Shown here: in pieces, positions 22,722 through 46,843 of the stretch | Layout: every line of letters starts with the position of its first letter | Numbering within the stretch: position 1 is the first letter of the stretch | NCBI GenBank assembly: GCA_002213445.1 | Contig: NJIE01000003.1 | Location: 248,001-312,000 of the forward strand | Direction of reading: 5' to 3' | Length of the DNA: 64,000 nt | Source: Xenophilus sp. AP218F | Lineage (GTDB): Bacteria; Pseudomonadota; Gammaproteobacteria; Burkholderiales; Chromobacteriaceae | Translations under genes and position numbers: made by a program | The notes under the pieces: generated by a model | Told to the model about the DNA's origin: nothing | The model's database searches: none | What the model saw: the letters and a program-made list of their open reading frames with translations, nothing else

Positions 22722-25173
<2,452 letters not shown>

Positions 25174-25175
<2 letters not shown>

Positions 25176-25178
25176 GGG
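25174..25178. repeat. Target-site duplication AAGGG (left copy)
   Basis: AAGGG, beginning in the gyrB stop codon, is repeated at 37892-37896 just outside the right end of the Tn7-like element. Five bases is the duplication length of Tn7-like transposons. Confidence 0.85.
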
Positions 25179-25236
25179 TGTAGGGTGACACTCAAAGTGA
25201 CATTTGTGTCAGGTTAGTGAAAAAATGCTGACACAG
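25179..25236. repeat. Left end of Tn7-like element, TnsB-type sites
   Basis: After TGTAGGGTGACA come AGTGACA, TTGTGTCA and CTGACACA. TGTGTCA (25206-25212) and TGACACA (about 25230-25236) are inverted with 17 bases between them, an arrangement repeated at the right end with 16 bases between. Confidence 0.75.
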
Positions 25237-25242
25237 ATAATG

Positions 25243-25277
25243 AAAAAACCCACCGGATAGCTTCGGTGGGTTTTTTT
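25243..25277. terminator. Strong bidirectional terminator inside transposon left end
   Basis: AAAAAACCCACCG pairs with CGGTGGGTTTTTT around an 8-base loop, with a T run on both strands. It lies 68 bp past gyrB and can end gyrB transcription and leftward cargo transcription. Confidence 0.9.
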
Positions 25278-25399
25278 ACGATTGATCAAACTTCCTCTTT
25301 TCGGCCAAAGCTGCCCGTCGCAAGAGCGAAGAAATGTGGCTGGTTTCGTATTTAAAGCAGTCACAAATGTATCTAGTAAATGCGGGGCGATTCAGTAAT

Positions 25400-25465
25400 C
25401 GGTGGCCGGAGTGCCGCAGGCACGAAGGGAACCCAAAGCGCAGCTTTGGGCCATCCGGTTGACCG
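25400..25465. other. Three-stem structured element
   Basis: An outer stem CGGTGGCCGGA/TCCGGTTGACCG encloses two perfect hairpins, GTGCC-GCA-GGCAC (25411-25423) and CCCAAAGC-GCA-GCTTTGGG (25432-25450). It lies at the 3' end of the two-gene membrane unit. It could be a terminal recombination site (attC-like), a transcription terminator or a structured RNA. Confidence 0.45.
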
Positions 25466-25480
25466 AAAGATTAGACACCA

Positions 25481-25879
25481 TTAGCTTAATTCTTTTCGTA
25501 ACGACCACAGCTTTACTACCAGCATCCACATATACGCTGCTAGTACAGTGGATACAAGAGTTACGAAGCAGTAGGCGGTCCTTACTGCGTCATACTTGTC
25601 AAGGGCGGATAAACCCGCATCTTGATATCTACTCATCGAATCCTTGGCGATTTTCAGTGCATCCGGAAGAAAAATTAGTGCTACGAAAAGCGCCATAATG
25701 GCTACGGGTAGAGCTTTTGCGAAAAGTATACCGGATACTGCCGTGCGTGCCGCTCCATTGTCTTCCTTGTGCGGCTTGGGTTTTGTATCCAATGCCTTAG
25801 CTATATCGGCATACCAAAGGCTGAAAAGTATTGCTGCAATAGCCATAAGCAGACTTGAGGCTGAAAGTAGGTCACTCAT
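25481..25879 (-). CDS. Small membrane protein of unknown function (transposon cargo)
   Basis: 132 residues starting MSDLLSASS. There are three predicted membrane segments (about 3-22, 52-73, 103-122) with a charged loop, KPKPHKEDNG, after the first. It follows the 189-residue gene after 2 bp, so the two are surely one operon. I do not recognise the family. Codon use is more AT-rich than the backbone. Confidence 0.6.
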   Translation of the reverse strand: MSDLLSASSLLMAIAAILFSLWYADIAKALDTKPKPHKEDNGAARTAVSGILFAKALPVAIMALFVALIFLPDALKIAKDSMSRYQDAGLSALDKYDAVRTAYCFVTLVSTVLAAYMWMLVVKLWSLRKELS

Positions 25880-25881
25880 GA

Positions 25882-26451
25882 TTATGGGTTGGGCCGAACG
25901 GCAAAATTTGTACATAGTCGATTGTAGGACGAAGGGGGGATTTCAAATGTTGATACGCTTCCCCTTCTTTTAACTACGGGTGAAAGACTACCATCAATGT
26001 CAGCCAATGTTTTATTAAGTTCATCTACCACATTCTGGCTATTAATGACCACGGTATAGTCGTCTATATTATTTTGACGCGTTGCAGCTGTTAGAGCCAC
26101 ACCGAGGGTACGCTCAACACAATTCCGCAGTTGATATTGATACTTAGAAATTACCGATCTGATAAGTGAGCGGCTTTCAGTCAAGGTTGTTTGGAATAAA
26201 CTACTAACTGTTCTCTCGTCTGGAATGACTCCGTTGAACGCCGTTTCAATTAGCAGCAGTAGCCTGTATTCTAGCATGTCACTTCCACGCTTAAATACTT
26301 TCTGCCCTCTGAACATGGCTAAATATTCATTAATTGAAGCTGTAGAGCATGCGTTAAGTCGGTTATTTAGATCTGCAACACCACATCCTAGAATCGCTGC
26401 GATTTCAGTCTCTTCGGCGGGGGTTAAGTCTAAAGTGAGAGTGATTTGCAC
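25882..26451 (-). CDS. Hypothetical protein, partner of small membrane protein
   Basis: 189 residues, soluble, no signal peptide. The N-terminus TLDLTPAEETEIAAILGC and the mostly helical middle show no motif I know. The start is GTG at 26451, with a weak ribosome site. The unit of two genes is bounded by inverted copies of TTAGACACCAT (25471-25481 and 26464-26474) and lies next to an attC-like site, suggesting capture as a cassette. A membrane plus cytosolic pair on a mobile element could be a defence or toxin pair, but that is only inference. Confidence 0.55.
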   Translation of the reverse strand: MQITLTLDLTPAEETEIAAILGCGVADLNNRLNACSTASINEYLAMFRGQKVFKRGSDMLEYRLLLLIETAFNGVIPDERTVSSLFQTTLTESRSLIRSVISKYQYQLRNCVERTLGVALTAATRQNNIDDYTVVINSQNVVDELNKTLADIDGSLSPVVKRRGSVSTFEIPPSSYNRLCTNFAVRPNP

Positions 26452-26468
26452 GGGTGTATCCCTATGGT

Positions 26469-26528
26469 GTCTAACGATTAAGCTAAATGGCGAGCGTCAG
26501 CGCGTCCGGTTTGAGCTCCGGGTTATGC
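26469..26528 (-). other. Integron attC-like site
   Basis: Read leftward the 60-bp site starts GCATAAC (RYYYAAC with one mismatch) and ends GTTAGAC (perfect GTTRRRY). Inside, AGCTCAAA and TTTAGCT can pair, leaving one extrahelical base, the hallmark of attC. The stop codon of the fragment gene upstream falls inside it, as in gene cassettes. No integrase gene is present in the window. Confidence 0.4.
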
Positions 26529-26658
26529 GAACCTCGATTGCATAAGCATCACTGCTGTTAACAACAAGCTCAACAATGGCAGTAGCAGGATCGGTGATGA
26601 TGGCGCCAGCGTGGTTCTCTAGGAATCCCTCATCGTAGAGGAGGGTTTGTTGTTCCAT
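26497..26658 (-). pseudogene. N-terminal fragment of a GHKL ATPase gene
   Basis: 53 residues from ATG 26658. It contains FLENHAGAIITDP and AIVELVVNSSDAYA, the N-box (E-x3-N-x2-DA) of HSP90/MutL/histidine-kinase-type ATPases. The frame then ends within the attC-like site, so the ATP lid and the rest are missing. Either a deletion joined this start to a cassette end or the gene was truncated by cassette recombination. Confidence 0.6.
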
Positions 26659-27091
26659 TAAAATAGTTTTTATGCAATTTAAACACCTAAATAATACGAC
26701 AAATAACTATTTTAGGGAACGATCGAGTTCTCAAAAAAGTCAACGACTGCTACCCGTTCAGTGACCGGTGGCCTAATGATTGCAGGCGGTGATGGCCATA
26801 GGTGCGAACGGCAGCAATGGCCGAAAAGGAGACGATGCCTCGCTCCCAGAGAAGAAGTGACAACTTGCTTCACCTGGCATCTGGGAGACACCTTTGTCTG
26901 CGTGTTGCATTTTCACTCAAATTCACAGCAAAACTTCCCCCACCCCCTGAGAGTCCGGCGCGACCAGCCTGATAGAAAATCAGCTGGTACCATTTTGATT
27001 TCATTCTGTTATTCCGAGCACCCCTGATGTTTGACACCCCTGCCAGCCGACTCTAGCCTGCTTGAAATTTCTTTCCAAACTCTCGGTAATA
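26659..27091. other. Non-coding stretch inside transposon
   Basis: 433 bp. The left 100 bp are AT-rich and probably hold the promoter of the truncated ATPase gene. The rest has no convincing gene and no clear repeat. Near 26971, GATAGAAAATCAGCTGGTACC contains a small palindrome, CAGCTG, of no obvious meaning. Confidence 0.4.
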
Positions 27092-27511
27092 ATGAGCCCC
27101 TTTGCCCACCTGCTACATGAGTTGCGAATGCGCTACAGCATCCGACAAGGCGATCTCGCAGAGCTGATCGGCTATGAGCAGAGCTATGTCTCATCTCTTG
27201 AAGTCGGTATCAAAGGGCCACCCCAGCCAGAATTCATCACCAAGCTGATCAAGGCGCTAGATCTCCCACCAGAAGATCAAGCACGTCTGTATTCAGCTGT
27301 AACGGCATCACAGCGCAAGCTAGTTATCGACACGGATGCACCACAAGAGGTGTATCAGCTGGTTGCAGACTTGCAGCAAAGCCTACACAAGCTGCAACCC
27401 GCGCAGATTCGAGTGATTCGGGAAATTTTGGCGATGAAGATTCAGGAAGAACCCATGCCTGAACCGGTCCGGCGTCTCAAGCGCCGCAAAAGAGAGGAGG
27501 CCCAAATGTAA
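27092..27511 (+). CDS. XRE-family helix-turn-helix regulator
   Basis: 139 residues beginning MSPFAHLLHELRMRYSI. An XRE-type helix-turn-helix covers about 5-60 (RQGDLAELIGYEQSYVSSLE), followed by a helical region and a basic tail RRLKRRKREEAQ. It reads toward tnsA, 245 bp upstream, and may repress the transposition genes or cargo. The open frame extends ten codons upstream, but ATG 27092 fits the domain start better. Confidence 0.75.
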   Translation: MSPFAHLLHELRMRYSIRQGDLAELIGYEQSYVSSLEVGIKGPPQPEFITKLIKALDLPPEDQARLYSAVTASQRKLVIDTDAPQEVYQLVADLQQSLHKLQPAQIRVIREILAMKIQEEPMPEPVRRLKRRKREEAQM

Positions 27512-27756
27512 ACGGGACAAACCTTGCGGCTTGGCCCGTTCTTTAAGGGTCTGAAATCAGCAGATCTCAGGAATTCGACACTCAGAGTATCTGCACTCCC
27601 TCCGCATAGGTCAAGCCACAACCTCACGCACCATGCCGATCCGCAGCCTGTAAAACGCTGCGGCAGGGTATTTGTACGCCCGAAATCGGTGATATTCGAC
27701 CCTTTCCGGTGGGTAAGAGGCCGTTGCTGCCCCTTGCCCACGTAGGAGGAGCAGTC

Positions 27757-28479
27757 ATGCCAGCAATTTCACTCAAACGGCAGTTACTGAGTCGTTCCTC
27801 TGGTGGCCTGGTCCACCAGCGCTCCCGCGAAGTGATCCGCTCTACAGGCGGGATCATGCGCGGCAAGTTTCCCAGCCGTAAAACCGGCCGCCTGGTGCAT
27901 TACGAAGGCTTGCTTGAGCGGGATGCCATCTACCTGTTCGAGACATCCCCGCTGATTGAAAGCTTCGCTGAGCAGCCCGAGCGCACCTACTTCCCTGATG
28001 GTAACAAGCTTCGGCGCTATACACCGGATTTCGTCCTCGACCTTCACGACGGTCGGCGCGTACTGGTTGAAATCAAGCCCGCCCGCAGCCTTCAGCAGCC
28101 TGAAGTACGCCACAAGCTCGATTGTGTCGCGGCGGAGCTGGAACGAACGGGCCAAACCTTTCTGGTCTTGAGCGAAACAGACCTGCGACAGCAGCCCCGG
28201 CTCGACAACTTGAAATGGATTTATCAGCACGCCAGCAAGCGCGTCGTGTCGTTCATGCAAAGCCGCACCGCGATTGAGTCGTTGGCCGGCGATTTCCCCA
28301 TGACGCTAGATGCAGCAAGCCATGCGCTAACGATGCATGGTGTGGAGCCATTCGGCTTGTTACTGGATGGCTGGCTGCAATGCGACCTGTCTGAGCCCGT
28401 CAATTTCGATACCCCGGTTACCCTGAGCATGGAGAGCGATCATGAGTGGTTTCGCATTGCGCCAAAATATGGCTTTTGA
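27757..28479 (+). CDS. tnsA: Tn7-like transposition protein TnsA (endonuclease)
   Basis: 240 residues. The N-terminal domain has the restriction-endonuclease fold of TnsA, with YEGLLERDAIYL (Glu), YTPDFVLDL (Asp) and VLVEIKPA (Glu-x-Lys) in order. TnsA nicks the 5' ends so that the element moves by cut-and-paste. GGAGGAG stands 9 bases before ATG 27757. The gene overlaps tnsB by 38 bases and heads the operon tnsA-B-C-tniQ-tniQ. Confidence 0.88.
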   Translation: MPAISLKRQLLSRSSGGLVHQRSREVIRSTGGIMRGKFPSRKTGRLVHYEGLLERDAIYLFETSPLIESFAEQPERTYFPDGNKLRRYTPDFVLDLHDGRRVLVEIKPARSLQQPEVRHKLDCVAAELERTGQTFLVLSETDLRQQPRLDNLKWIYQHASKRVVSFMQSRTAIESLAGDFPMTLDAASHALTMHGVEPFGLLLDGWLQCDLSEPVNFDTPVTLSMESDHEWFRIAPKYGF

Positions 28480-30412
28480 ATGGAATGGTGCCCCCCACAT
28501 CATCGAGCGCCTGACGCCACAGCAACAAGCCATCGTGCGCAGGGAAACGGATGGGCATACCCGCATCTGCGCATTTGATGAACTGTTGTCTGCATATGGT
28601 GAAGGGCAGATCACCGTACCCGAGCAGGCATCCGCCAAGGAACAGATATATAGATACAGCCGCCCTCTGGCGGACTTACCCTCTCATCTGCAACAGGAAG
28701 CCAAGCGTCGCCTAGCGTATCTGGAAGGCCTGAAAGAACAGGGTAGCTATGTTCTTACCCCACAAAGCCTAGCCCCCATCATTACGCAGATTGCCCAGCA
28801 ACTGGGTGATCCGAAGCCACCTTCCCCTTCTGCGGTCTACCGCTGGCTGAGCCGGTTTCGTAATGCACAGGATATACGTGCCCTTATCCCGCGCTATGAC
28901 CGCCGTGGCAGCAACGCGCTGCGCCAGCCTGACAAGCTGCTAGAGCTCTTCTCCGAAGCCGTGCAGGAGGCCTTTGACGCGAGCCCGGCAGCCATTGGGG
29001 CAAACATCTATGACCGGCTACTTTGGAAGGTCGATCAAGAGAACCGACTCCGACATGGAGAACATCGCCTAGCCATGCCATCGCGGAGAACGGTCTATCG
29101 TATGTTCAAACGGATCGAGGCGTACGACCTCACGACGCTAAAATATGGCAAGAACGCTGCTGATCGCCGCTTCCGCATCTTCAAGAATGGACCCAACGTA
29201 GAGCATATCTTGCAGCGGGTCGAAGTAGACCATACCCCGCTTGATTACTTTCTGATCGATGACCGTTACCAGTTACCCCTTGGCCGCCCGACCCTGACGA
29301 TTCTGATTGATGTCTATAGCCGATTCCCGGTTGGGCACTTCATCAGCTTTGGTCCACCTTCAGTGGAGGCGGTAGTTGGAGCCTTGCGCCATGCCATCCT
29401 GCCAAAGAAGGCTGCAAAGCCCGCAGTCCCAGAGGTTATTGTCGAACATCGTTGGCCTTGCTATGGAGTGATGCAAGAGCTGGTCTGCGACAATGGGCTG
29501 GAGTTTCTTGGCACGACCCTGGAAGCCATCGCGCTGGACCTTGGCATCGGGCTGCAATTCTGCCCCAAACGACAACCTCGTTTCAAAGGCGTCATCGAGC
29601 GCTTTCTCAAGACCGTCAATTACTACTTCACGCACCAAATGCCCGGCACCAGTCTGGCGCGCTTCACCGAGCGCGGGGACTACGACCCACAGAAGCATGC
29701 TGTCCTGACGCTCGGTGAATTTACCCACCTCTTCGAAAAGTGGCTATTGGATGTGTATGCCCAGACCGTGCATCGGGGCATCGGCACGACACCCTGGGCA
29801 AAATGGAATGACGGTCTGCAACGCATGACACCCCAGTTGCCGGGAACCCTGGAAGACCTGCGCACCCGCATAGGCAAAGCGGAAGTTCGCAAGCTGAATC
29901 AGGAAGGGCTGTTCCTGATGGGTATCCGTTACGCTGGACCTGAGCTGGAACCAATTCTGCGAACCTGTGGAAGCGGTACACCGATACGGGTGGTGTACGA
30001 CCCCAGCGACCTGGGCTCCATACTGGCTTGGCCGCCCAAAGCCGAACACCCACTCACTATTGCTGCTGCCGATCCTGATTACGCCAAGGGGCTCACCGAG
30101 TTCCAGCACAAGACCATTCGCAAGATGCTCAGGGAACAAGGCAAAAAGGCTGCTAATCCACAGCGGCTTGCGGAAGCGCGTCATCAATTGATGCAGGAGG
30201 TCGATGCGCTGGTGCAAAGCCGCAAGCTCGGCAAACGCAAACGTGCCGCCCGGCTCTCGGGTGCAAACAGCGACCAGCCTGAAGCTCGCATGTCCGCACC
30301 CAAACCCAAACGGCAACTCAAATCGCAGCAGCCTATCGCCAACCCGGCGTCGCCACTGGCACCGAAGCTGATTCCTTCCTTCAAGCTCCCATCGCGAAAG
30401 GACTGGAAATGA
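28442..30412 (+). CDS. tnsB: Tn7-like transposase TnsB (DDE)
   Basis: 656 residues of the TnsB/TniA/MuA type: helix-turn-helix domains in the first 230 residues, then the catalytic core with VEVDHTPLDY (Asp about 262), LVCDNGLEF (Asp about 349) and KGVIERFLK (Glu about 387), a Mu-transposase C-terminal barrel and a basic tail. It binds the end repeats and joins 3' ends to the target. The start overlaps tnsA and the stop overlaps tnsC by ATGA. Confidence 0.92.
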   Translation: MSGFALRQNMAFEWNGAPHIIERLTPQQQAIVRRETDGHTRICAFDELLSAYGEGQITVPEQASAKEQIYRYSRPLADLPSHLQQEAKRRLAYLEGLKEQGSYVLTPQSLAPIITQIAQQLGDPKPPSPSAVYRWLSRFRNAQDIRALIPRYDRRGSNALRQPDKLLELFSEAVQEAFDASPAAIGANIYDRLLWKVDQENRLRHGEHRLAMPSRRTVYRMFKRIEAYDLTTLKYGKNAADRRFRIFKNGPNVEHILQRVEVDHTPLDYFLIDDRYQLPLGRPTLTILIDVYSRFPVGHFISFGPPSVEAVVGALRHAILPKKAAKPAVPEVIVEHRWPCYGVMQELVCDNGLEFLGTTLEAIALDLGIGLQFCPKRQPRFKGVIERFLKTVNYYFTHQMPGTSLARFTERGDYDPQKHAVLTLGEFTHLFEKWLLDVYAQTVHRGIGTTPWAKWNDGLQRMTPQLPGTLEDLRTRIGKAEVRKLNQEGLFLMGIRYAGPELEPILRTCGSGTPIRVVYDPSDLGSILAWPPKAEHPLTIAAADPDYAKGLTEFQHKTIRKMLREQGKKAANPQRLAEARHQLMQEVDALVQSRKLGKRKRAARLSGANSDQPEARMSAPKPKRQLKSQQPIANPASPLAPKLIPSFKLPSRKDWK

Positions 30413-31377
30413 TCCATCAGGAATTCATGGCGCTCAGCCAGTTCAGTCAGGAACACCTGAATTTCCCGCCCTTCATGTCGGCGTTCGAGGAGGTCGAGCG
30501 CGCCCTACAGCTGTATCGCTCCGGCGCAATGATCCAGAACCTGCTGATTACCGGGGAATCCGGCACCGGCAAGACCACGCTTTGTCAGCTCATCTGCCAG
30601 AAGTACCCGCGAGTCGTTCTGCCTGAACGCGATGTGCAGCCGGTGCTGTATGTCTCGATTCCTCCAGCGGCCACCATTGGCGGCGTGGCGGAAGCCATGC
30701 TGACTCGCCTGGGCGATCTCCAACCCGGCCAGGGGACAGGCTCTGCCAAAACCGCTCGCGTCGCACGCTTAGCCAAGGGCGTTGGCGTCGAACTACTGTT
30801 GATTGACGAGGCCAACCACATTCAGGACAGAGGGCAGTCGCCAACCCAGTATCTCGTCGGTGACTGGATCAAAAGCCTGATGGATAACCTGCAAGTCCCG
30901 ACCGTCCTGCTGGGTCTGCCTCGCGTGGAGAACCTGCTGCGGGTCAACGAGCAGTTGCGCCGCCGCTTTTCCCGGCAGATGCGCATGGAACTGGGCCAGA
31001 ACCCGGATAAAAGCGTCGAGCAGGAATGCCTGGACCTGTTCTACACCCTGGCCAGCTGCATGCCGATTCCGTTTTCCATCGGCTCGGAGAGCTGGGAAAG
31101 CCTGGCACGCCGGGTGTATTTCGCCACCGACGGCAGGGTGGCCTATCTGAAAAAGCTGTTGATCAGTGCGATCCGATTGGCCTTCGAACAATCCATGAAC
31201 GAAATCCGCCGGCAAGAACTAGCACAAGCCTTTGAAGCCGAAATCTGGCCGCAAGGCACAGGCGCGCTCAACCCATTCAGCCGCGACTTCGTATTTCGCC
31301 GCCTTGACCGCCAGGCAGAGCCCTTTGAACAGGGCGCACTCCTCACTCAGACACGCGGGAGGCCTGTTCATGCTTAA
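30409..31377 (+). CDS. tnsC: Tn7-like AAA+ ATPase TnsC
   Basis: 322 residues. Walker A GESGTGKTT (about 49-57) and Walker B ELLLIDEANHI (about 128-138) are intact; RRRFSRQMRMEL gives the arginine finger region. It links target-selection protein TniQ/TnsD to the TnsAB transposase. It overlaps the neighbours on both sides (4 bp with tnsB, 8 bp with the first tniQ), showing tight translational coupling. Confidence 0.92.
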   Translation: MIHQEFMALSQFSQEHLNFPPFMSAFEEVERALQLYRSGAMIQNLLITGESGTGKTTLCQLICQKYPRVVLPERDVQPVLYVSIPPAATIGGVAEAMLTRLGDLQPGQGTGSAKTARVARLAKGVGVELLLIDEANHIQDRGQSPTQYLVGDWIKSLMDNLQVPTVLLGLPRVENLLRVNEQLRRRFSRQMRMELGQNPDKSVEQECLDLFYTLASCMPIPFSIGSESWESLARRVYFATDGRVAYLKKLLISAIRLAFEQSMNEIRRQELAQAFEAEIWPQGTGALNPFSRDFVFRRLDRQAEPFEQGALLTQTRGRPVHA

Positions 31378-32618
31378 GCGTTCCACCCTGCCTCTTCGCC
31401 CTCGGCCCGCCATGGATGAAAGTATCGGCGGCTTTCTCCACCGGCTGTTTAGCCTTCATGGCCACCACATACCGGAAGAACTCACACGGGCGCTTTGCAC
31501 AAGCCCCCATCAGTCTGCCTTTAACGACTTTGGGGATCAGTTCTTTGATCTGCCAAGTGACGCCGCGTGGCTGCGAGCACAACACAGGCTCAAATCGGCT
31601 ATCCCAGAGCCTTGGCGCAGCCGACGTACCTCATCGCCTCGCCTTTGCCCGCGATGCCTTGTAGAGCGGGGGCATCATGCGGGCTACTGGGCCTTGCCTT
31701 GGGTAACGGTCTGCCCTCGGCACCGCACCCGGCTGCGGGAGCTCTGCCTCTGCGGCCGCACTCTGTATTGGGCAACTCTGGAAATGAACTGGCACTGCCT
31801 TTGTCGGCGGAGCCTGTTGGATGACGACACGGCGCAATCTACCGCGCTTAACTGCCGATTGTCAGAGGTGATTATCCGTCGCGCCCAGCAACATCCTGAG
31901 CGTCTATCCGCATATCTGGCATGGCTGCACTTTACCAGCCAGTTGGTAAGCCGACTTCAGCCGGCCAAAGAGAAATCGCGCGGTCCTCAGCTGCATCTAG
32001 AAGTACTGTCCCAGCCGTTGCCACAACTTAGGCAATGGCTGGCACACGGCATCCGAGCGACCTACACCCAGCCAGGGGGGGGCGTTCATCTACCTGAACT
32101 CGGAAAGCAAGCCGCTGGCCATCTCGCGCTGGATTTCGCGGCATGACCTGGGCCATACCCGGCTCATGGCGCGCTATATCACGCCATTACTCCGCTGCCC
32201 AACGCCGCTCAATCATGACCGGATCACGCTGAACCCAGCCATACCGGCTCAAGAATACCGGCAGCAACTGTGCCGGCTGTGGAACCAGTGGCAACATCGA
32301 CCACGGCCGGCGATTCTGCCGCAAGCGTCCCCGGCCTGGCTCAAGCACCGCCATGCACATGATCAGGATCAGCAACACATCCGTCTGCGGTTACAGCTGC
32401 TGAACCAATGGCTAGCCGACGGCATTCAGTCGGCTCTGCCTCTCTTCACCGTACTTCCCGACCTGCCCGGCAACGATGGCTCCCCAACGACCCTGATTCG
32501 GCAACTGGACCACTGGCTTGGTCAGCTACGTCGTTCCAGTCTCGAACATTTTGCCCAGCAAGTATTCGCCACCGATGCAAAGGAGAACCAGCATGTTGCG
32601 CTATCAAGTCACGGCTAA
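31370..32618 (+). pseudogene. tniQ: First TniQ/TnsD target-selection protein, frameshifted in a G8 tract
   Basis: The frame from ATG 31370 encodes a TniQ N-terminal domain (PAMDESIGGFLHRL) and zinc-binding motifs (CPRC...CPRH and CLCG...CLCRR). At a run of eight G (32075-32082) the reading frame is lost and a stop follows at 32146. One base fewer restores a continuous protein through AFIYLNSESKPLAISRW to the stop at 32618, about 415 residues. The extra G may be real, phase-variable, bypassed by ribosomal slippage, or a sequencing error. Intact or not, it matches TniD of tniCABDE modules by position. Confidence 0.75.
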
Positions 32619-34437
32619 CCGCCAGTTCCCCAATCACCGCCGGACAAACCAGAAACTCCGTCTGCCAATTCGTGTGCGTCCCTATCCTGGCGAATCGGGT
32701 ATCAGCTATCTGACTCGCCTTGCCTGGGCCAATGGCTATAACTCGTTCAACCCGCTGCTGAACCAACTGACATCGCTGACCGAGCAGCCGGCCCGACTAC
32801 GGGCCTTGCTTCATTTATCACAGGAGGAATGGCAAGGATTGTATTTGCCCTGGCCCAAGCGCGTTCGGCCTGCGGATGCACAAGCCCCGGATGAACGTGA
32901 TCTGGCCATCAATTACGCCACGACCCGCTGGTGCCCGGTCTGCCTGCGCAATGAGCCCCATCTGGATGCGCGCTGGAGCATTCGCCTGTACTGCATCTGC
33001 CCATACCACCACAACCTGTTGATGGATGCCTGCCCTGAATGCGGGGCTGTGTTATCTGCCGGACAAGTTCTGAGTGGTCACTGCCAGCATTGCGGACAGT
33101 CGCTGACTGAAAAAGTCTTTGAAGCGTCCGAAGCCATCAAGATGGTTCAAAGCACGTTCCAATGCTCAGTAGAGCGTGAAAACCAAATATCCCTGACGAT
33201 CACGCCACAAGGCTGGGCGCGACTGATCCAGCTTGTCGCCAATATCGAACTGAGGGCACAAGGACAGAAAACCGGGCAACTGGCACAGCTGCATCGCGTA
33301 TCGGTACTGGCGATAGTCAGCCACAAGCTCGGTTCTTTGCTGGAAAACTGGCCCGACAACTTCTTCCCCTGGCTCGACAAGATCAAAACCTCCGCGCCCA
33401 GCTCGTTCAGTCTGCGCCGCAGTTTCGGTCGCCTCTATCACTGGCTGTACGTGGAGCTGGACACGCCTGAGTTTGACTTCCTGCGCGAAGCATTCGAGAT
33501 CTACCTGAAACAGCATTGGGAAGGCCCCATTACCCTGCGCAATCATTGGCAAACGGGACTGCATGGGCAAGGCAACTGCATCACGATTCAGGAGGCCTGC
33601 CTGAAGCTACGCGTGACGCCAGCCGAACTGAAACGGCTGCATGCTGCCGGCTGGTTGCAGGCCAACATCGTCACCAGCCGAGGTGGACGACAATTCTGGT
33701 CGATTCCCGAAGCGCAGTTACCCCTGGTCAAGATGGAGCTAAGCGAAGGCCTTACCCTAGAAGCGACCGCAAAGTATCTCGGACTCAGCCAAACCCGAAT
33801 CCGGCAGCTGGTTGCCGTACATGCACTGCTCCCTAAGTTTGCCCCTGGCGACCACGGCGCAAGCACCTGGCGGTTTGCGTTGGATTCCCTGCGGGTGCTG
33901 GTGACGCGTTGCCAGATACGAGGCATTGTGCCTTCACCAACCCAGCCAACTATTACGCTGAGCAATGCCCTGAAAACCATGCGGATTGATGGACCATGCT
34001 TTACCGCGCTGCTGCGCGCCATTATGAAACGCGAGGTGCTGCTTGTCGAAGGCAGCTCAGGGGCAAGCAAGCTCGGGCACACCTTTCTCGACAAACGAAC
34101 GCTGGACGACTGGTTATCGGCCTATCGAATCGATCACGCGGGGTTGCTGACAATTCCAGAGGCGGCAAAACAGTTGGGGATCAAGGAACAGGTGGCATAC
34201 CACCTGGTGCAACGCCAATTGCTGGCATCGACACTCCGCAATCTGACCCAACTCTGGATTACAGCCGAAGCCGTTGCGGATTTTGCGCGGCAGTACGTGG
34301 CGCTCAGCACACTGGCGCAGGAAGCCAAAACATCACCAAAGTCGCTACTCTCAAAGCTCACTGTCCAGCCCGTCACCGGGCCGACAGTAGATGGCTGCCG
34401 GCAGTATTTCTACCGTAGGACGGACTTGCAAACATAG
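32593..34437 (+). CDS. tniQ: Second TniQ/TnsD protein, likely site-selection factor
   Basis: 614 residues with AGGAG just before ATG 32593. A TniQ N-terminal domain (PYPGESGISYLTRLAWANGY) is followed by a zinc-binding region CPVC, CPYH, CPECG and CQHCG (about 110-180) and a long C-terminal part with several helix-turn-helix-like segments (LTLEATAKYLGLSQTRIRQLV, LTIPEAAKQLGIKEQVAYHLV, at about 390 and 515). TnsD proteins with this layout read a specific DNA sequence at the end of a host gene. I infer that this one recognises the gyrB 3' end. Confidence 0.82.
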   Translation: MLRYQVTANRQFPNHRRTNQKLRLPIRVRPYPGESGISYLTRLAWANGYNSFNPLLNQLTSLTEQPARLRALLHLSQEEWQGLYLPWPKRVRPADAQAPDERDLAINYATTRWCPVCLRNEPHLDARWSIRLYCICPYHHNLLMDACPECGAVLSAGQVLSGHCQHCGQSLTEKVFEASEAIKMVQSTFQCSVERENQISLTITPQGWARLIQLVANIELRAQGQKTGQLAQLHRVSVLAIVSHKLGSLLENWPDNFFPWLDKIKTSAPSSFSLRRSFGRLYHWLYVELDTPEFDFLREAFEIYLKQHWEGPITLRNHWQTGLHGQGNCITIQEACLKLRVTPAELKRLHAAGWLQANIVTSRGGRQFWSIPEAQLPLVKMELSEGLTLEATAKYLGLSQTRIRQLVAVHALLPKFAPGDHGASTWRFALDSLRVLVTRCQIRGIVPSPTQPTITLSNALKTMRIDGPCFTALLRAIMKREVLLVEGSSGASKLGHTFLDKRTLDDWLSAYRIDHAGLLTIPEAAKQLGIKEQVAYHLVQRQLLASTLRNLTQLWITAEAVADFARQYVALSTLAQEAKTSPKSLLSKLTVQPVTGPTVDGCRQYFYRRTDLQT

Positions 34438-34440
34438 CGC

Positions 34441-34557
34441 TCAGTGCTTGGGCTGACGGGGCTTGTGGTGGGTTTTACGCTGGTGACCGGCATAGGCGGC
34501 CAAGGCTGCAAAGCCGAGAACGACCACCACAAGCGCCACCAAGGATTCTGCAGGCAT
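34441..34557 (-). CDS. 38-residue single-span membrane protein
   Basis: A short gene from ATG 34557 with a very good ribosome site, AGGGGA, seven bases ahead. It encodes one membrane helix (LVALVVVVLGFAALAAYAG) followed by a basic, His-rich tail (HQRKTHHKPRQPKH). It stands convergent to tniQ, 3 bp beyond its stop. Function unknown; such peptides on mobile elements can be toxins or regulators of transposition. Confidence 0.5.
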   Translation of the reverse strand: MPAESLVALVVVVLGFAALAAYAGHQRKTHHKPRQPKH

Positions 34558-34727
34558 CAGTTTCCCCTGAAATCGACTTTGCGTTGGATTTCAACCGTAG
34601 CCGAGTGCGAGCAAGGTGGCAAGTGAACGACACGGAGCCTGTCAAAAGATAGGCATTCCCGCCATGACGTTCATGGTAGTGCAACACCTAAAAAATGCGG
34701 ATAAACTACACAAAAGGCGTAATCACA

Positions 34728-34928
34728 ATGAAATGCCCCATTTGTGGAGCTGCAGAGCTAGAGCATGATACTCGTGACTTACCATACACCTACAAGGGCA
34801 ATCACACCGTGATTCCTGCTGTAACTGCAGACTATTGCCCCGTATGCAATGAATCCATCACTGACAATGCAGAATCTGAGCGGGTGATGGAGATCATGCG
34901 TATTTTTGCCAATAAAATCGATGATTAA
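34728..34928 (+). CDS. MqsA/YgiT-type zinc-domain antitoxin, lacking the HTH domain
   Basis: 66 residues, MKCPICGAAELEHDTRDLPY then DYCPVCNESITD: the two CxxC pairs and the DLPYTYKG strand match the N-terminal toxin-binding domain of MqsA. Full-length MqsA (about 130 residues) also has a DNA-binding C-terminal half, which is missing here. No MqsR toxin gene lies beside it. Either a remnant or a stand-alone anti-toxin. Confidence 0.6.
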   Translation: MKCPICGAAELEHDTRDLPYTYKGNHTVIPAVTADYCPVCNESITDNAESERVMEIMRIFANKIDD

Positions 34929-35365
34929 GTCACATAAATTATTGGTCGGTACCACAGCACGCGTCGAGTCATGCGCGTTGTAGCTGAGAACAGCAATTGA
35001 ATTTTCTAAAGCAGCCCAGAGTGACGGGCGAAAAACGGTAAGAAGCAGTCTGTCGTCGTTTCTGCGATGCTGCCGTTCGAAGGGCTGTTCCACTTCGTAA
35101 GCTGCCGTAGGGCCAATTCACACAACTCGGCCGAAACGGGCGGTCAATCTCGCAGTGGCTATGACTGCTACCAGTTTTATTACTGGTCGCTTGGAGTCTG
35201 CTTACAAACGACTGCAATTTTATAGTAAGTGCTGTCTGCTACAGCCGCCATGTGAACTCCCGAAGTTGGATGGGAGTTATTGGGGCATATGGTGTTATCC
35301 AATACAGGTTAGTCCAATTCGGTTTGCGGGTTCGCTGTGCGAAAGGCATTAAAAATGGGGGTCGT
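34929..35365. other. Non-coding stretch before the NACHT gene
   Basis: 437 bp without a convincing gene. It must hold the promoter of the NACHT gene. Short open frames in it have no ribosome sites. A TTATCC-like and several TGT/ACA words are scattered without pattern. Confidence 0.4.
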
Positions 35366-37567
35366 ATGAAATGGCAGGACGTTGAGCGGGAAGTCAAGAA
35401 AATCGCTGAGTCTGTGTGGGGAACGAAGCCAGAGAGCGAGCGAGAAACAGGCGTGAAATGCGATGCAATATTGAGGCTGAAGCCAAACTATTGGATCCTG
35501 ATTGAAGTCTCGAAACTGGATGATCTTGCCAAACTTCGGGACGATATCAGTAAGCTGAATTTGATCCGTTCTACGCAGATGGGCAAAGGTATTTTCTGCG
35601 AATGCTTCTTCGTCACCTCGGGCGAGCACACTTCATTGTTTGAGAGTGGGCGCGAGGCGAACGTGGAAGTCCATGATCTGAGTTCCTTCGCGTCCAAGTT
35701 TATTGGTGCGAGTCAGTATGTTTCCGAACGTGCAAATATGCCATTTGGTAGTGCAGTCAATCCGGACACTGGGGATGTAGACTCGCACCATTATGCTGCA
35801 ATTAACTACGCGGACGAGCACCATCGGCGATACTCTATCGCAGAGATCGCAAATGAGCTAAAGAGCGGACGACATGTCGTCCTCCTAGGTGAGTTCGGAA
35901 CAGGCAAATCACGATGCGTGATGGAGGTATTCCGGACGCTAGTCTCCGAGAACCCAACATTCCCTCCTATTGCTATCAATCTCCGAGACAACTGGGGATT
36001 GCGAAAGCATCACCTCATAGTAAACAACCACCTAGATGGTCTCGGCTTGGGAGACTTCACTGATGCGCTCGTTCGTAGCCTGCATCGAGGCAATCACGTT
36101 TTACTTCTTGATGGTTTCGACGAAATTGGCTCACAGTCATGGTCAGGGGACGCGAAGCGACTGACGGAGATTCGCAAAAAAAGTCTTGAGGGAGTGCGAG
36201 ACTTGATCGGCAATGTCAAAAATGCCGGCCTCCTGATCGTTGGGCGGGAGCACTATTTCGCTACTCCGGAAGAAATGGCAGAGAGCCTTGGTCTGAACCT
36301 TTCGAAGACCCTCATTCTACGATGTCCAGAGGAATTCTCCGAGTCCGAGCTAACAGAGTATATCCAGGCAAATACATCTCTCAAGACCGTGCCTGAATGG
36401 ATGCCACGAAAGCCGCTCATTTGCCAACTTCTCGCTCGGCTACCTGCTGCGGATGTGGAGCGATTGGAAACAGGGGCTGACGGAGAGATCGAGTTTTTCG
36501 AGTCTGTCTTTGACAGGATTTGTGACCGAGAAACCCGAATACATCCGACCATCTTCAAGGAGTCGTTGAAAGGGATTCTTCTTCTTTTGTCACAGCAGAC
36601 CCGCGCATTACCGCCAAATGATGAGCGCATGTCAACAGAGGACATTAACCAAGCATTCTATGCCGTGACTGGCTCCCCTCCGATAGACGAGTCGGCTCTC
36701 TTGCTACAACGCCTTCCATATCTTGGGAGAGCAGGCTCAGGCGGCACCGACCGGATATTCATCGATGACTACGCAAAGAACGGCCTGCGTGCCCTCGCCT
36801 TAATACAAGCTATTCGTTCCAATCAACGTGAGATTGGTACCAAGAAATGGCTACAGCCCTTAGACGCGTTCGGCCTGCGTGTACTTCATGCTAGAGGCGG
36901 TACTAGTACCGATGCTGAGCGTTTCGCGAAACTGTGTATGAATCATGGAAATCCGCAAATCGCGTGCGACCTTGTAGCGGCGAGGTTGCTGGCGACCGAT
37001 GATATATGTGATTTTCAGGGATTATCCGTGATCGAAGGTCGAATAAAGTTACTAGCCTTTGTCGATATCGAGGTTAAGAACCTTCACCTAGCTGGCATTG
37101 AAGTGGAAGAGCTGACGCTCGAGTCCGCGACTTTCAGTAGCGTTAAGGTAGAGTTTTGCACAGTTGATTGCGTAAAAGGGATGGGTGGGGTAGACAAGTT
37201 ACCAGACGTTTTTACCGACTGTGAAGTAGGAGTATTTGATAAGGCAATCACTGTCGCTCGAATTAGTGAGCTGAATCTCACAGATCAACAGAAAACGCTC
37301 TTGGCTATCATTAAGAAGCTGTTTTTCCAACCGGGGGCAGGGCGCAAGGAAGAGGCGCTACTCCGTGGAGCTGAGAAGTATTGGCACCTAGCTGCCGCGC
37401 AAGCTGCAATTCACTACATGGAGAAAAATAAGCTGCTGATTCAAACTAAAGGCTCTCATGGCGCGGTCTACGTTCCAAAGTGGAAGCACAGACCACGCAT
37501 GGCAAAGGTGCTGGAGATGCAGACCAGTTGTGGAGATGAGCTCTGGGAACTGGTAGGCCAAGCATAG
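35366..37567 (+). CDS. NACHT (STAND) NTPase with N-terminal nuclease-like fold, candidate phage defence
   Basis: 733 residues; GGGGG upstream of ATG 35366. Residues 1-150 resemble a PD-(D/E)XK fold: Asp33, Glu47 in ILIEVSK, where the usual Lys two places on is Ser49 with Lys50 next. The NTPase has Walker A GEFGTGKSR near 175 and the NACHT Walker B LLLDGFDEIG near 247. After it comes a strand-repeat region like pentapeptide repeats (about 575-650: LLAFVDIEVKNLHLAGIEV) and a C-terminal winged-helix-like part. Such proteins sense phage and trigger DNA cleavage or cell death (bNACHT, Avs). Here it is cargo of a Tn7-like element with its own terminator. The exact family is not known to me. Confidence 0.75.
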   Translation: MKWQDVEREVKKIAESVWGTKPESERETGVKCDAILRLKPNYWILIEVSKLDDLAKLRDDISKLNLIRSTQMGKGIFCECFFVTSGEHTSLFESGREANVEVHDLSSFASKFIGASQYVSERANMPFGSAVNPDTGDVDSHHYAAINYADEHHRRYSIAEIANELKSGRHVVLLGEFGTGKSRCVMEVFRTLVSENPTFPPIAINLRDNWGLRKHHLIVNNHLDGLGLGDFTDALVRSLHRGNHVLLLDGFDEIGSQSWSGDAKRLTEIRKKSLEGVRDLIGNVKNAGLLIVGREHYFATPEEMAESLGLNLSKTLILRCPEEFSESELTEYIQANTSLKTVPEWMPRKPLICQLLARLPAADVERLETGADGEIEFFESVFDRICDRETRIHPTIFKESLKGILLLLSQQTRALPPNDERMSTEDINQAFYAVTGSPPIDESALLLQRLPYLGRAGSGGTDRIFIDDYAKNGLRALALIQAIRSNQREIGTKKWLQPLDAFGLRVLHARGGTSTDAERFAKLCMNHGNPQIACDLVAARLLATDDICDFQGLSVIEGRIKLLAFVDIEVKNLHLAGIEVEELTLESATFSSVKVEFCTVDCVKGMGGVDKLPDVFTDCEVGVFDKAITVARISELNLTDQQKTLLAIIKKLFFQPGAGRKEEALLRGAEKYWHLAAAQAAIHYMEKNKLLIQTKGSHGAVYVPKWKHRPRMAKVLEMQTSCGDELWELVGQA

Positions 37568-37600
37568 TCTGAGCAGACTCTCATTGGCGGGATACGTTTA

Positions 37601-37632
37601 TGGCCGCTTCCATTGGAACGCGGCCATTTTTC
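37601..37632 (+). terminator. Terminator after the NACHT gene
   Basis: TGGCCGC (37601-37607) pairs with GCGGCCA (37620-37626) and is followed by TTTTTC. It lies 34 bp after the stop. Confidence 0.85.
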
Positions 37633-37789
37633 ATCTCTTGCCCTGTCGTCAACTTTGGCCGAGAACTGGTCATCCACGGTAGATTCAACGCTGAAGCTAC
37701 GTACGGCTAAGACGGGAGGACATCAGCACACGCGACTCCCAAACGAGCTATTAGTGTAAATTTCAGTATCTTTGTCACAACAACCATAT

Positions 37790-37891
37790 TTTTGCAGCAA
37801 CTGTGTCATGCCCGCCAAACACTCTGACACAAAAAACGAAAAAACCAATAAAAATCAATGGCGTAAAAATCATCAGTTATGACATCCTACA
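37790..37891. repeat. Right end of Tn7-like element, TnsB-type sites
   Basis: Reading inward from 37891: TGTAGGATGTCA, then TTGTGTCAGAG and CATGACACAG near 37836-37803, and TTGTGACAAAG just inside. TGTGTCA and TGACACA are again an inverted pair, here 16 bases apart. CTGACACA followed by AANGAAAAAACC also occurs at the left end (25229 on). Confidence 0.75.
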
Positions 37892-37896
37892 AAGGG
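37892..37896. repeat. Target-site duplication AAGGG (right copy)
   Basis: Direct repeat of 25174-25178, bordering the right end CCTACA of the transposon. Confidence 0.85.
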
Positions 37897-38125
37897 TGTA
37901 GGATCCCACGAATATCTAGATATTTCCCACTTTTCCAGATTTTTGGGATTCTGCTCTCTGCACTCAGCTTAGCAAATGGCCTCCAGGTTTGGAGGCCATT
38001 TTGCATTTCAGCTTGAGCTAGGATCTTCTGCACAGATGAGGTATCACAGTCTGCAATATCCTATAATCATTTAGAACGGCATTGATTTAAAAGCAATCAT
38101 ATCTAGAAATAGATGGGAACCTACA
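37897..38125. repeat. 229-bp mini-element with 27-bp terminal inverted repeats
   Basis: Left terminus TGTAGGATCCCACGAATA... (37897-37923) and the reverse complement of 38099-38125, TGTAGGTTCCCATCTATT..., agree at 22 of 27 positions and share CTAGATAT. There is no coding gene, only a hairpin in the middle. It touches the AAGGG duplication of the transposon and starts with the same six bases, TGTAGG. Flanking duplications of its own are not visible (AAGGG left, TAAAA right). Confidence 0.6.
37974..38002. terminator. Bidirectional hairpin terminator, perhaps the original gyrB terminator
   Basis: AAATGGCCTCC pairs with GGAGGCCATTT over a seven-base loop, with T runs on both strands. Before the transposon arrived it would have stood about 100 bp after gyrB. 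Confidence 0.8.
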
Positions 38126-38189: not shown

Positions 38190-40265
38190 TTACGTCCCTA
38201 ACAGATCATCTAAATATTCCGACCTCCGCCCACCTGAAGTGATAAATAAGGCATCACGCGCCCTGGTACATGCCACATAAAATAAATGTCTCTCAGTCTC
38301 CTGCACTTCAAACAAGTCTGATGCATCTGTCACATCATTAATACGCTGTGAAGAAGGTAGCACTCCCTCATCACATGCTATCAGCGCAACTGCTCGGAAC
38401 TCTAGCCCTTTGACAAAATGCATTGTGCTGATAGATACAGCATCCTCACTAAGAAGAATACGCTCATTAAGGACAACGAATGGAAGCCCTGCAGCATGCA
38501 GTGATAGCTTCGCCCGTTCCACTTCTAAGTCAGATCTAACAAATACGCCAATTTCATTTAGCTTTACCCCCTGAGCCACCTGCTTTTTCAACCAATCCGC
38601 AACAGCAGAAATTTCCTCTTCAACATCTTTGCACTCAAGGATTTCAGGCTCAGGACCATTAAACACGGAAACTGTACCACCACGCTGTTCTTGGTTACCG
38701 TCTACGTCACTGATCTCTGGGGCCAGGAGCTTGTCAGCCAGCTGACGGATTTGGTGCGACGTCCGATAGTTGATCGTCAGAGTACGGGAGCGCCCTCGTA
38801 CATCAACACCAAGGGCTTTCCAAGAGAACGCCGTTTGGAAAATACGCTGGCCAATATCACCGGTAAAGAATAGCGAGTCAGGACGTATATGCCCTATGGC
38901 AGCCAAAAAACGCAGCTGCGCCACACTAATGTCCTGAGCCTCATCGACCACGATGTAGTCATATGGCACGTTCTTAACATTAGAGAAATGATCTGCGAGA
39001 CGTGTAAATACTGATGCCATTGTTACCACTCCTCGCGTCTGCAACTCATTCAAAACTTGTTGGAAGATATGCCACAAGATCAGCCTTTGCGCCTCAGCAA
39101 GGCGAGTCTTACGACCTAGGCGTCGCACATCCCGATAAGCATCCCAACTTCCGAGTTGCCAACTGTCCACGACATCTCGCCATTCCGATAGCAGGAAAGC
39201 TGGGCTGAACTTGTGGCCCGGTACTGCATCAGCGGCAGCACCCAGGAGCGTCCGTAACTCACCATCATCAAGCAGTCGTGCCTTGCCAAAATGCATGGAA
39301 TACGCGCGCAGCCCAACAGCATTGATTGCCAAAACATCAATTCGCTCAGCTAAACGGGGGTCGTCCCGCAGCAAGCGCCGTAATTTTTCCAATAATGCGT
39401 TTGCCAACGGCTCCGAAAAGGTCGTTAGCAGCACCCGTACATCGTCTTTCTGCCTAAGCAATTGATTGGCACGATGCAGCGCCACAATGGTTTTGCCTGT
39501 GCCCGCGGACCCAGACACCCGGGCAGGGCCGTTATATTCTCGTTCAACCACCTGCCGTTGCCCAGGGTGCAAGAATAGCGTCCATTTCTCCCACGGATAA
39601 TCCAGCGCCTGACTCAACTCTTCCATGTCGGTCATCAAGCGGAAGCGACGTTGAGCATCCGGATGATCAAATGGGTTGGCACCCGGCGAAACTGGCGTGG
39701 GTTTACTCGGTTGGCCACCAGTAGCCAACTCCAACAACGCTTCGGCAGCCTCTGCTGGTAAGTGATCCGCTAGCGCTAGCAGCGAATCCTCATCTGCAGC
39801 TCGCACATCCGTCAGCCATTCCGGTGGAACACCATAAGCCAACAGTTCGTTATCACTGTAACGGTCGAACAGTTGAGCCTTAGCATTAGCCGAAACCGTC
39901 GCTCCGACAAACACTGGGATAGTGATTTCCTCTATCCGCTCACGAATCTCCACCAACTGAGCCGCGCCCGTGGTCGGATGCGTCTGAAGCTTGCGCCGTT
40001 CAGCCCACTGATACGCCTTGTCATGATGATCGACATAGCACAGCAATAGACTGGACTCAGTGCGATGCACAATCAGACGGATATCGCTACTAACCCTGAC
40101 AGACCAGAAATTTTTATCTTTAGCATGATCCAGTTTGTGAAAGCTGAAGCCAGGATTTGCGGGATTTAGCTGCAAGTCGAATGCCGTCGTCTTAACAGCT
40201 TTTTGCTCATCACCTGTCAGCCGAGCAAGGCTGGAAGTGAATGTGTCTGCAATACGAAATTCCAT
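38190..40265 (-). CDS. RelE-fold/UvrD-type helicase fusion
   Basis: 691 residues from ATG 40265. Residues 1-95 have the RelE/ParE toxin fold pattern (NPGFSFHKLDHAKDKNFWS, RLIVHRTES, CYVDHHDKAYQWA). An SF1 helicase follows: Walker A GSAGTGKTIVALHRA near 253, IVVDEAQDIS near 435, TINYRTS and the C-terminal VACTRARDALFI. SF1A helicases unwind 3' to 5'. It is the last gene of a leftward series Res-Mod-helicase with gaps of about 85 bp, so it probably works with the restriction system, perhaps as a DNA-end processor or a ribosome-targeting abortive module. The role of the RelE fold is unknown. Confidence 0.8.
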   Translation of the reverse strand: MEFRIADTFTSSLARLTGDEQKAVKTTAFDLQLNPANPGFSFHKLDHAKDKNFWSVRVSSDIRLIVHRTESSLLLCYVDHHDKAYQWAERRKLQTHPTTGAAQLVEIRERIEEITIPVFVGATVSANAKAQLFDRYSDNELLAYGVPPEWLTDVRAADEDSLLALADHLPAEAAEALLELATGGQPSKPTPVSPGANPFDHPDAQRRFRLMTDMEELSQALDYPWEKWTLFLHPGQRQVVEREYNGPARVSGSAGTGKTIVALHRANQLLRQKDDVRVLLTTFSEPLANALLEKLRRLLRDDPRLAERIDVLAINAVGLRAYSMHFGKARLLDDGELRTLLGAAADAVPGHKFSPAFLLSEWRDVVDSWQLGSWDAYRDVRRLGRKTRLAEAQRLILWHIFQQVLNELQTRGVVTMASVFTRLADHFSNVKNVPYDYIVVDEAQDISVAQLRFLAAIGHIRPDSLFFTGDIGQRIFQTAFSWKALGVDVRGRSRTLTINYRTSHQIRQLADKLLAPEISDVDGNQEQRGGTVSVFNGPEPEILECKDVEEEISAVADWLKKQVAQGVKLNEIGVFVRSDLEVERAKLSLHAAGLPFVVLNERILLSEDAVSISTMHFVKGLEFRAVALIACDEGVLPSSQRINDVTDASDLFEVQETERHLFYVACTRARDALFITSGGRRSEYLDDLLGT

Positions 40266-40351
40266 CAATCTACTAGCCTCAAATTTTTATTGATTAGAAG
40301 TTACTAGTCTTTCACCACTGGAAATATTTTAATTTCTGGCCTTAATATTTG

Positions 40352-43249: not shown

Positions 43250-43332
43250 TTCAATCTTATCCGGCACCCGATATCAGGATGCATTTGGGGGTATTCTACT
43301 TTGCGGCGATCTGGTGACGCGCTACTTTCTCG

Positions 43333-46404: not shown

Positions 46405-46634
46405 TTTAATATGCTCGCGATATTTTATTAAGCTTCCCTGGAGATGCCGTGAGCCACAAGCTCAAAACCGACAAAAACCATTGAAATGGCCCATATAGTA
46501 CAGAAGTTGTACACAAATAGCATCACTCTCAAGGTATCAACCACACATGAACACAAAAATATCAGTAGTTTCCCCCTTGCATGACAAGATAGATACATTC
46601 GATAATCTCAACCGTGCCGTTCAATAGCGGCACC
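46405..46634. other. Promoter region between Res and the C4-like RNA
   Basis: 230 AT-rich bases between divergent units with no gene. It should hold the Res promoter leftward and the promoter of the regulatory RNA rightward, but I cannot pick out unambiguous -35/-10 boxes. Confidence 0.4.
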
Positions 46635-46843
46635 GGGATTGGCGTCCCGACGAATCTCGGCGGACTGCAGCGAAAGCTCCAGTCCTCACACCATTGCTGC
46701 GCGCAATTATGGCGGGCCTTGGTGGGAGCATCCTAGATGCGCCGGTTCCGAGATTCCGGTAACGCCAATCCCGCCTTGTGCCTGCCACCCCCCGATTGGC
46801 GTCGGAGATGCAGGTGAGCACCTAAATCTCGGAGAGCCTTACC
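46635..46843 (+). ncRNA. C4-type antisense RNA and leader of the DUF1484 gene
   Basis: Three linked segments: GGGATTGGCGT (46635-46645) with AATCTCGG (46653-46660); then the complementary pair CCGAGATT (46748-46755) with ACGCCAATCCC (46762-46772); then a second sense copy GATTGGCGTC (46794-46803) with AATCTCGG (46825-46832), which overlaps the GGAG ribosome site of the next gene. The middle segment can pair with either sense copy, the logic of phage P1/P7 C4 RNA, so it would block translation of the gene that follows. Confidence 0.6.

Follow-up and report, generated by a model that had tools for sequence, protein, structure and literature searches.

In a stretch of 64,000 nucleotides from Xenophilus sp. 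AP218F (contig NJIE01000003.1, positions 248,001 to 312,000; this whole stretch is hereafter called the window), we observe a Tn7-like element of 12,713 bp (25179-37891) whose left border lies 3 bp past the stop codon of gyrB. We consider it very probable that this is a protein-guided, cut-and-paste Tn7-like transposon that has the 3' end of gyrB as its home site and the second of its two TniQ proteins, TniQ2, as a TnsD-type selector, which would read the DNA directly. Tn7 combines TnsA, TnsB, and TnsC with a TnsD-type selector, has TGT...ACA ends, duplicates 5 bp of its target, and faces the 3' end of an essential gene with its tnsA side. The window element resembles it in its TnsA, TnsB, and TnsC, its proposed TnsD-type selector, its TGT...ACA ends, its 5-bp duplication, and the orientation of its tnsA side toward gyrB. 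The features that delimit it, all but the first defined from the sequence, are as follows:

22770 to 25175, plus strand: gyrB, the attachment gene (Pfam DNA_gyraseB; stop codon TAA at 25173-25175)
25174 to 25178: 5-bp target duplication AAGGG, gyrB side
25179 to 25300, plus strand: gyrB-proximal (tnsA-side) end, TGTAGGGTGACAC..., with repeated TGACA and AGTGA motifs
37770 to 37891, minus strand: distal transposon end, TGTAGGATGTCA..., inner border approximate
37892 to 37896: 5-bp target duplication AAGGG, distal side

The initial annotation of this DNA had described an element with matching ends and an AAGGG duplication at the gyrB stop codon, and both coordinates and sequence confirm it: the termini, TGTAGGGTGACA and (on the minus strand) TGTAGGATGTCA, are alike at 10 of 12 bases, and the window thus holds the pairing of TGT...ACA ends with a 5-bp duplication that characterizes Tn7-like elements. 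The TGACA repeats that it had reported are visible within the gyrB-side end. With as many as 2 mismatches allowed, the end motif alone does not exceed chance in the window (6 occurrences versus 7.06 expected), so that the weight falls on its exact placement against the 5-bp repeats and on its recurrence in relatives. The window-type end is also found at gyrB in genomes G586, G587, G593, G581, G582, and G603, and internal repeats, which are predicted TnsB sites, occur in 64 of 97 gyrB-side ends of at least 110 bp, compared to 38 of 227 control windows and 4 of 17 non-gyrB hits. The last gyrB codons are the presumed recognition site of the element.

With respect to positional precision, identical 5-mers stand on both sides of 11 of the 14 gyrB elements with paired ends. 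These are AAGGG in the window, GATTC in G586, AAAGG in G592, TAAGC in G524, GATGT in G549, TGCTT in G395, ATTTT in G297, GAGGG in G588, and TGTAG in G388, as well as AAACA in G612 and AAAAA in G614, the latter two across contig breaks. By pattern, a TGT-type end lies within 22 bp in 47 of 66 gyrB 3' ends (57 from the family, 9 from the order), a count that by eye misses G388, G579, and G463 and includes the native-looking G597, with G571, G573, and G599 unsure; in 35 of these 47 occupied sites the end begins exactly 3 bp after the stop codon. Scanning 84,980 genomes for Asn-Ile-Asp-Val/Ile-stop-NNN-TGTAGG returned 116 stretches, 99 of them behind a GyrB C-terminus (87 Betaproteobacteria, 2 Gammaproteobacteria, 1 Clostridia, 1 Desulfuromonadia, and 8 without class; 45 belong to Burkholderiales, 21 to Neisseriales, and 11 to Rhodocyclales), although L182 and L198 among these 99 hits look like ordinary sequence; L279, too short for a judgment, does not enter the count. 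The 17 hits not behind GyrB include 3 Betaproteobacteria. Tns genes appear in the stored stretch behind only 2 of the 99 hits because the loci hold at most 8 kb, and whole-genome searches were therefore made for 24 of the 116 loci instead (the named genomes below).

The initial annotation had proposed a search for TniQ2 relatives at the gyrB 3' end in the same orientation. Our search for TniQ2 matched 14 of 300 order genomes at 1e-15 (the source genome and some family members included), 30 of 61 family genomes at 1e-20 (using a 12-row profile), and 11 of 398 phylum genomes at 1e-30, and we located gyrB in the family genomes and in nine non-family genomes from the order search. For the best 42 of the 61 listed family matches (E 6.4e-53 or better; the 19 weaker ones were left out), the sites are gyrB in 21 cases, lysS in 7, msrB in 7, and fabI in 1, with 2 elsewhere and 4 unassigned; of the gyrB cases, 19 are on the gyrB contig and 2 are joined to it via identical duplications across contig breaks. 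In 7 of the 9 genomes outside the family, TniQ2 is encoded on the gyrB strand, 4 to 24 kb downstream of that gene, and the other two, G422 and G448, have TniQ2 and gyrB on different contigs. A TniQ2 relative is present in 7 of the 24 named genomes, and each of its 8 copies is found 6 to 27 kb downstream of gyrB in the gyrB orientation; the 24 genomes had been chosen through loci with a transposon end at gyrB, and the three linkage sets (21/42, 7/9, and 8/8) are partly overlapping or preselected. Linkage was judged by contig, strand, and distance, not by matched ends, for elements situated deep within arrays, namely those of G300, G431, G107, G429, G609, G589, G621, and most named genomes, and the phylum genomes G996, G475, G685, G496, and G947 stand outside the set with assigned sites. 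Among 50,697 phage records no match was found at 1e-5, and 4 plasmid records hold distant relatives with 21 to 28% identity. All three sets bear out the proposed linkage and orientation, supporting the earlier interpretation that gyrB is a recurrent, not a chance, site for TniQ2-bearing elements.

The element carries TnsA, TnsB, TnsC, and TniQ/TnsD genes in one run, in the order two small cargo open reading frames (ORFs), Xre-type regulator, tnsA, tnsB, tnsC, tniQ1, tniQ2, and a 771-aa NTPase gene:

25481 to 26451, minus strand: two small cargo ORFs, 144 and 189 aa, without a convincing family
27062 to 27511, plus strand: Xre-type helix-turn-helix (HTH) regulator upstream of tnsA (HTH_31, 1.7e-10)
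27709 to 28479, plus strand: tnsA (PF08722, TnsA N-domain, 9.5e-8; NF033179, 3.9e-20, below its cut-off)
28442 to 30412, plus strand: tnsB, DDE transposase (solved chains PseTnsAB, 8.9e-65, and Tn6677 TnsB, 4.7e-56)
30409 to 31377, plus strand: tnsC, AAA+ protein (TniB/TnsC, 6.8e-26; VchTnsC, 1.5e-21)
31232 to 32618, plus strand: tniQ1, frame-broken (31232-32146 and 32166-32618; TniQ, 5e-12)
32593 to 34437, plus strand: tniQ2, with a start codon of our choice (TniQ core, 1e-13, with conserved Cys/His; C-terminal HTH_17, 1.2e-11)
35252 to 37567, plus strand: cargo gene for a 771-aa AAA-type NTPase (AAA_16, 1.8e-5, below cut-off; weak mad8 match, 5.2e-4), possibly a defense gene

All five genes of the TnsA-TnsB-TnsC-TniQ-TniQ set named in the initial annotation are thus present, with the first tniQ split over two frames; its true start probably lies inside the end of tnsC. 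In the relative G586, whose TnsA, TnsB, and TnsC are 95.3, 92.8, and 97.1% identical to those of the window, tniQ1 is one 472-aa stop-to-stop frame. TnsB is weak in Pfam (rve, 3.2e-4, and Mu-transpos_C, 6.2e-4, both below curated cut-offs), and a relative of the Xre-type regulator precedes tnsA in several gyrB elements. The combination of a TniQ core with a C-terminal HTH_17 is found in 12 of 12 TniQ2 profile members.

That some gyrB elements (the window, G586, G107, and G429) have two TniQ frames raises the question of whether TniQ1 is the gyrB selector instead of TniQ2, or whether both are needed. We hold this to be highly improbable, given that TniQ1 is frame-broken in the window and that in G395, G506, G388, G524, and G549 the gap between tnsC and the HTH-bearing TniQ behind it is too small for another TniQ (a TniQ elsewhere in these elements could exist), so that TniQ1 seems not to be needed for the site. 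A second alternative is that insertion is RNA-guided, as in type I-F3 CRISPR-associated transposons (CASTs), whose proteins are the nearest solved relatives of the window TnsB and TnsC and whose TniQ chains are nearest to the TniQ profile. The I-F3 CASTs include Tn7017, with a TniQ that targets parE, a paralogue of gyrB, and the site of the window element is gyrB. CASTs carry Cas8/5, Cas7, and Cas6 with a CRISPR array; for the window element, however, no Cas protein or guide was found, as the 10 scanned element ORFs hold no Cas family and the element holds no CRISPR-like direct repeats. Moreover, the gyrB 3' end (178 bp up to the insertion point) shares no match longer than 10 nt with the element, and the best ungapped 32-mer has 21 matches compared to 21 to 22 in five prefiltered gyrB-body controls, a comparison in which a guide from elsewhere in the genome was not searched for. 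RNA guidance is therefore extremely unlikely here.

We thus favor TniQ2 as the selector and propose a mechanism in which the roles of TnsA, TnsB, and TnsC are modeled on Tn7. TniQ2 would itself read gyrB DNA, binding the last codons through its C-terminal HTH domains, and its TniQ core would recruit TnsC, which in turn would position TnsA and TnsB. Insertion would then take place 3 bp past the stop codon with the tnsA side toward gyrB and 5 bp duplicated, leaving gyrB intact and supplying it with a replacement terminator, and the arrays that form would later decay to solo ends.

Relatives of TniQ2 at other sites lie behind genes that we take to be lysS, msrB, and fabI (Pfam gives class II (D, K, N) tRNA synthetase, SelR, and enoyl-ACP reductase, respectively). 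The lysS sister clade (L027:12231-13801 and six more loci) sits about 19 to 28 bp behind the gene, with ends that are mostly TGTAGGTTTGC.. and contain hairpins, and the msrB sister clade (L132:13528-13930 and six more loci) sits close behind msrB (12 bp in G585). The single fabI element (L119:12671-13507), which is the second element of G612, is placed 14 bp behind fabI; its TnsB falls within the msrB clade and its TniQ is diverged, making it, as judged from the sequences, one case of TniQ changing with the site. In the TniQ tree of 44 rows, lysS forms one clade (100/99), the msrB rows form one clade together with two non-msrB rows, and the gyrB rows are spread, and the TnsB tree (38 of the 44 rows) is broadly similar; G588a, G588b, and G589b are labeled "unk" in these trees, their sites having been assigned later. 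The spread of the gyrB rows would fit gyrB being the older site, in an unrooted tree with several long branches. The initial annotation had regarded relatives at many unrelated sites as counting against a gyrB attachment site; we observe that gyrB is recurrent and that lysS, msrB, and fabI are also used, as separate clades or branches. In addition, a distant relative with the end TGTCGAGTGCCAC.. adjoins a tRNA gene (anticodon CAT) behind a sigma-70 gene in two phylum genomes (L316:13753-14100 and L317); a reading of this site as tRNA-Ile was rejected, as ARAGORN gives tRNA-Met (anticodon CAT).

These other sites also bear on whether the selector reads a non-coding cue, for instance the terminator region of gyrB or some feature of replication or transcription. 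The insertion point is outside the coding sequence, gyrB synonymous sites are not unusually conserved, and gyrB has dnaN (21559-22668) as its upstream neighbor in the window, a region that is commonly near the replication origin, all of which would suit such a cue. Against it, the insertion keeps its spacing to the stop codon (3 bp in 35/47) while the sequence behind empty gyrB genes varies among genomes, and the relatives at lysS, msrB, and fabI are likewise found just behind the stop codon; we therefore judge a non-coding cue to be unlikely. Within the coding sequence, the CGGAATAT core is present in 28 of 38 occupied versus 8 of 19 "empty" family sites (Fisher P = 0.04, relatedness uncontrolled, with 3 of the 19 "empty" sites occupied by eye), and at the empty sites of G583 and G591 the gyrB gene ends in unusual codons. 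Synonymous constraint or "escape" at the gyrB 3' end was dropped as a candidate signal, since synonymous sites in the last 8 codons are no more conserved than those in codons 16 to 100.

Several observations weigh against the reading of the gyrB codons by TniQ2 as the general explanation. At 1e-30, 17 of the 24 named genomes with a gyrB end have no TniQ2 relative, and 9 of the 24 lack a TniQ match in Pfam at 1e-5 (G627 among them, despite its TniQ2 relative), indicating that relics, or elements with other selectors, occupy many gyrB sites. The outer 5-mers differ in 3 of the 14 paired gyrB elements (G580, G431, and G622), and the inner array member of G589 is without matching 5-mers. The last 8 gyrB codons have no added synonymous conservation, with a codon entropy of 0.91 versus 0.75 at occupied family sites and 1.16 versus 1.04 in the named genomes. 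In G588 a near-identical gyrB-type copy interrupts a chemotaxis-receptor gene, where it is flanked by a GCTGG duplication of its own, and in G592 an msrB-clade copy lies beside an AraC-type gene; these exceptions, together with G589, indicate that specificity is strong and not absolute, or that a second pathway exists. Furthermore, when N- and C-terminal divergence of TniQ2 are compared, the C-terminus does not stand out between gyrB and lysS relatives (55.5/52.8% for G606 at gyrB versus lysS, compared to 63.4/59.2% within lysS and 37.5/27.6% for the much more distant msrB versus lysS), and as a mark of target switching this measure was set aside for want of a clear signal.

The ends that face gyrB also contain terminator-type hairpins, as in the window:

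25241 to 25278: terminator-type hairpin with A and T runs at its flanks, 62 bp inside the end (fold -23.9 kcal/mol, z -6.4)

The terminator scan lists this hairpin on the minus strand only because the plus-strand T run pairs into the stem. A terminator-like hairpin is present in the first 160 bp of 39 of the 47 pattern-occupied ends, starting at 35 to 113 bp, compared to 3 of 137 windows further inside the elements and 0 to 2 of 47 in ten plain shuffles, and 18 of the 19 pattern-empty gyrB sites have a hairpin as well. Taken together, the element appears to make up for the terminator displaced on insertion, and the hairpins would terminate gyrB transcripts. Genome G578 (L083) has a solo gyrB-side end with a hairpin and no second end before the recQ region, which is possibly a domesticated gyrB terminator.

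The sequence beyond the distal AAGGG is not a native target, which corrects the initial annotation; what follows is the end of another Tn7-like lineage:

37897 to 38125, plus strand: second-lineage remnant of TGTAGGATCC type, a gyrB-side end with a hairpin and an inverted end closing at 38125

Directly after the distal AAGGG stands TGTAGGATCCCACGAATATCTAG..., which over 113 bp shares 92% identity with what adjoins the gyrB stop codon in G524. In G524 and other genomes this lineage comes with a tnsABC and TniQ of its own, and its end is at gyrB in many genomes. In the window the remnant measures 229 bp, with differing outer flanks (AAGGG and TAAAA). Since the distal AAGGG abuts the end of this second lineage, the window locus is a tandem array. 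Junctions of a distal end, about 5 bp, and a next end occur seven times (window, G586, G592, G614, G588, G431, and G622), and in G388 a further lineage is inserted into the first bases of a window-type end, its duplicated 5-mer TGTAG being the start of that end. The uninterrupted gyrB-AAGGG-TGTAGGATCCCACGA allele that the initial annotation had suggested looking for does exist, in G580 and G590, where it is itself an occupied site. Because insertion regenerates the site, later elements would land between gyrB and an older element, giving rise to such arrays.

Behind the second end, the window holds a defense-type cluster (38190-46404) with a GajB-like UvrD helicase, a type III methylase, and a BPTD_3080-family restriction enzyme. 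An Rfam C4 antisense RNA (57 bits, 46705-46792) lies within 46601-46805, which matches a stretch behind the G524 gyrB array at 85% identity, and a PDC-S36 candidate defense protein (2e-105, 47479-48327) is found at the distal border of the island, beside a recQ-type helicase gene. In G578, gyrB and the recQ region behind it are 373 bp apart, and from position 48494 onward the window is again homologous to this genome. Further downstream, two ORFs resemble insertion-sequence transposases by eye (56241-57101, flanked by 19-bp inverted repeats, and 59862-60791, which has an 87% identical counterpart behind the gyrB end in G590).

Among known systems, the window element differs from Tn7 proper in lying behind gyrB, 3 bp past the stop codon, and not at glmS, the Tn7 site (PMC11406308), and its TnsC has 322 aa compared to the 523-aa Tn7 TnsC chains. 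No TnsE turned up in the element, with no TnsE-specific search made. Some I-F3 CASTs also have two TniQs and Xre-type regulators (PMC11406308). Tn6022, like the window element, is Tn7-like with a fixed chromosomal site; it has, however, a TniQ together with TnsF, a selector of another kind, and inserts inside comM (PMC10293859), whereas the window element is behind gyrB. In the parts of the literature consulted, Tn7-type sites are named as glmS, comM, yhiN, and parE (PMC10201428) and as tRNA genes and parE (PMC11406308), and I-F3 sites as rsmJ and cobO in a study where gyrB serves only as a phylogenetic marker (PMC12452197). The main texts of PMC10293859, PMC8649781, PMC11406308, and PMC10702557 contain no occurrence of gyrB, and the titles and abstract openings of the literature listed name neither gyrB nor lysS or msrB as a Tn7-type site, although for gyrB an entry in a supplementary table elsewhere is possible. 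As far as these sources extend, this points to a gyrB landing pad that has not been described.

In a broader context, we give about even weight to the notion that gyrB is the ancestral home of a betaproteobacteria-wide, CRISPR-free Tn7-like clade near I-F3, in which the TniQ-read target changed at least three times (to lysS, msrB, and fabI, each a conserved gene 3' end), arrays build defense-gene islands behind gyrB, and left-over ends serve as the gyrB terminator after loss. The end of an essential, nearly universal gene would join the short list of Tn7-type sites, and the sister branches would contribute lysS, msrB, and fabI. Since a compact selector accompanies each of them and no Cas protein was seen, insertion beside gyrB would be a candidate safe-harbor tool for betaproteobacteria, its appeal being that gyrB stays intact and a terminator is supplied. 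The gyrB elements also account for many of the genomic islands behind gyrB. Related selectors with different targets make DNA recognition by TniQ/TnsD proteins and target switching testable, and, if the above holds true, the gyrB/lysS/msrB/fabI series would be a natural code book for how these proteins read DNA.

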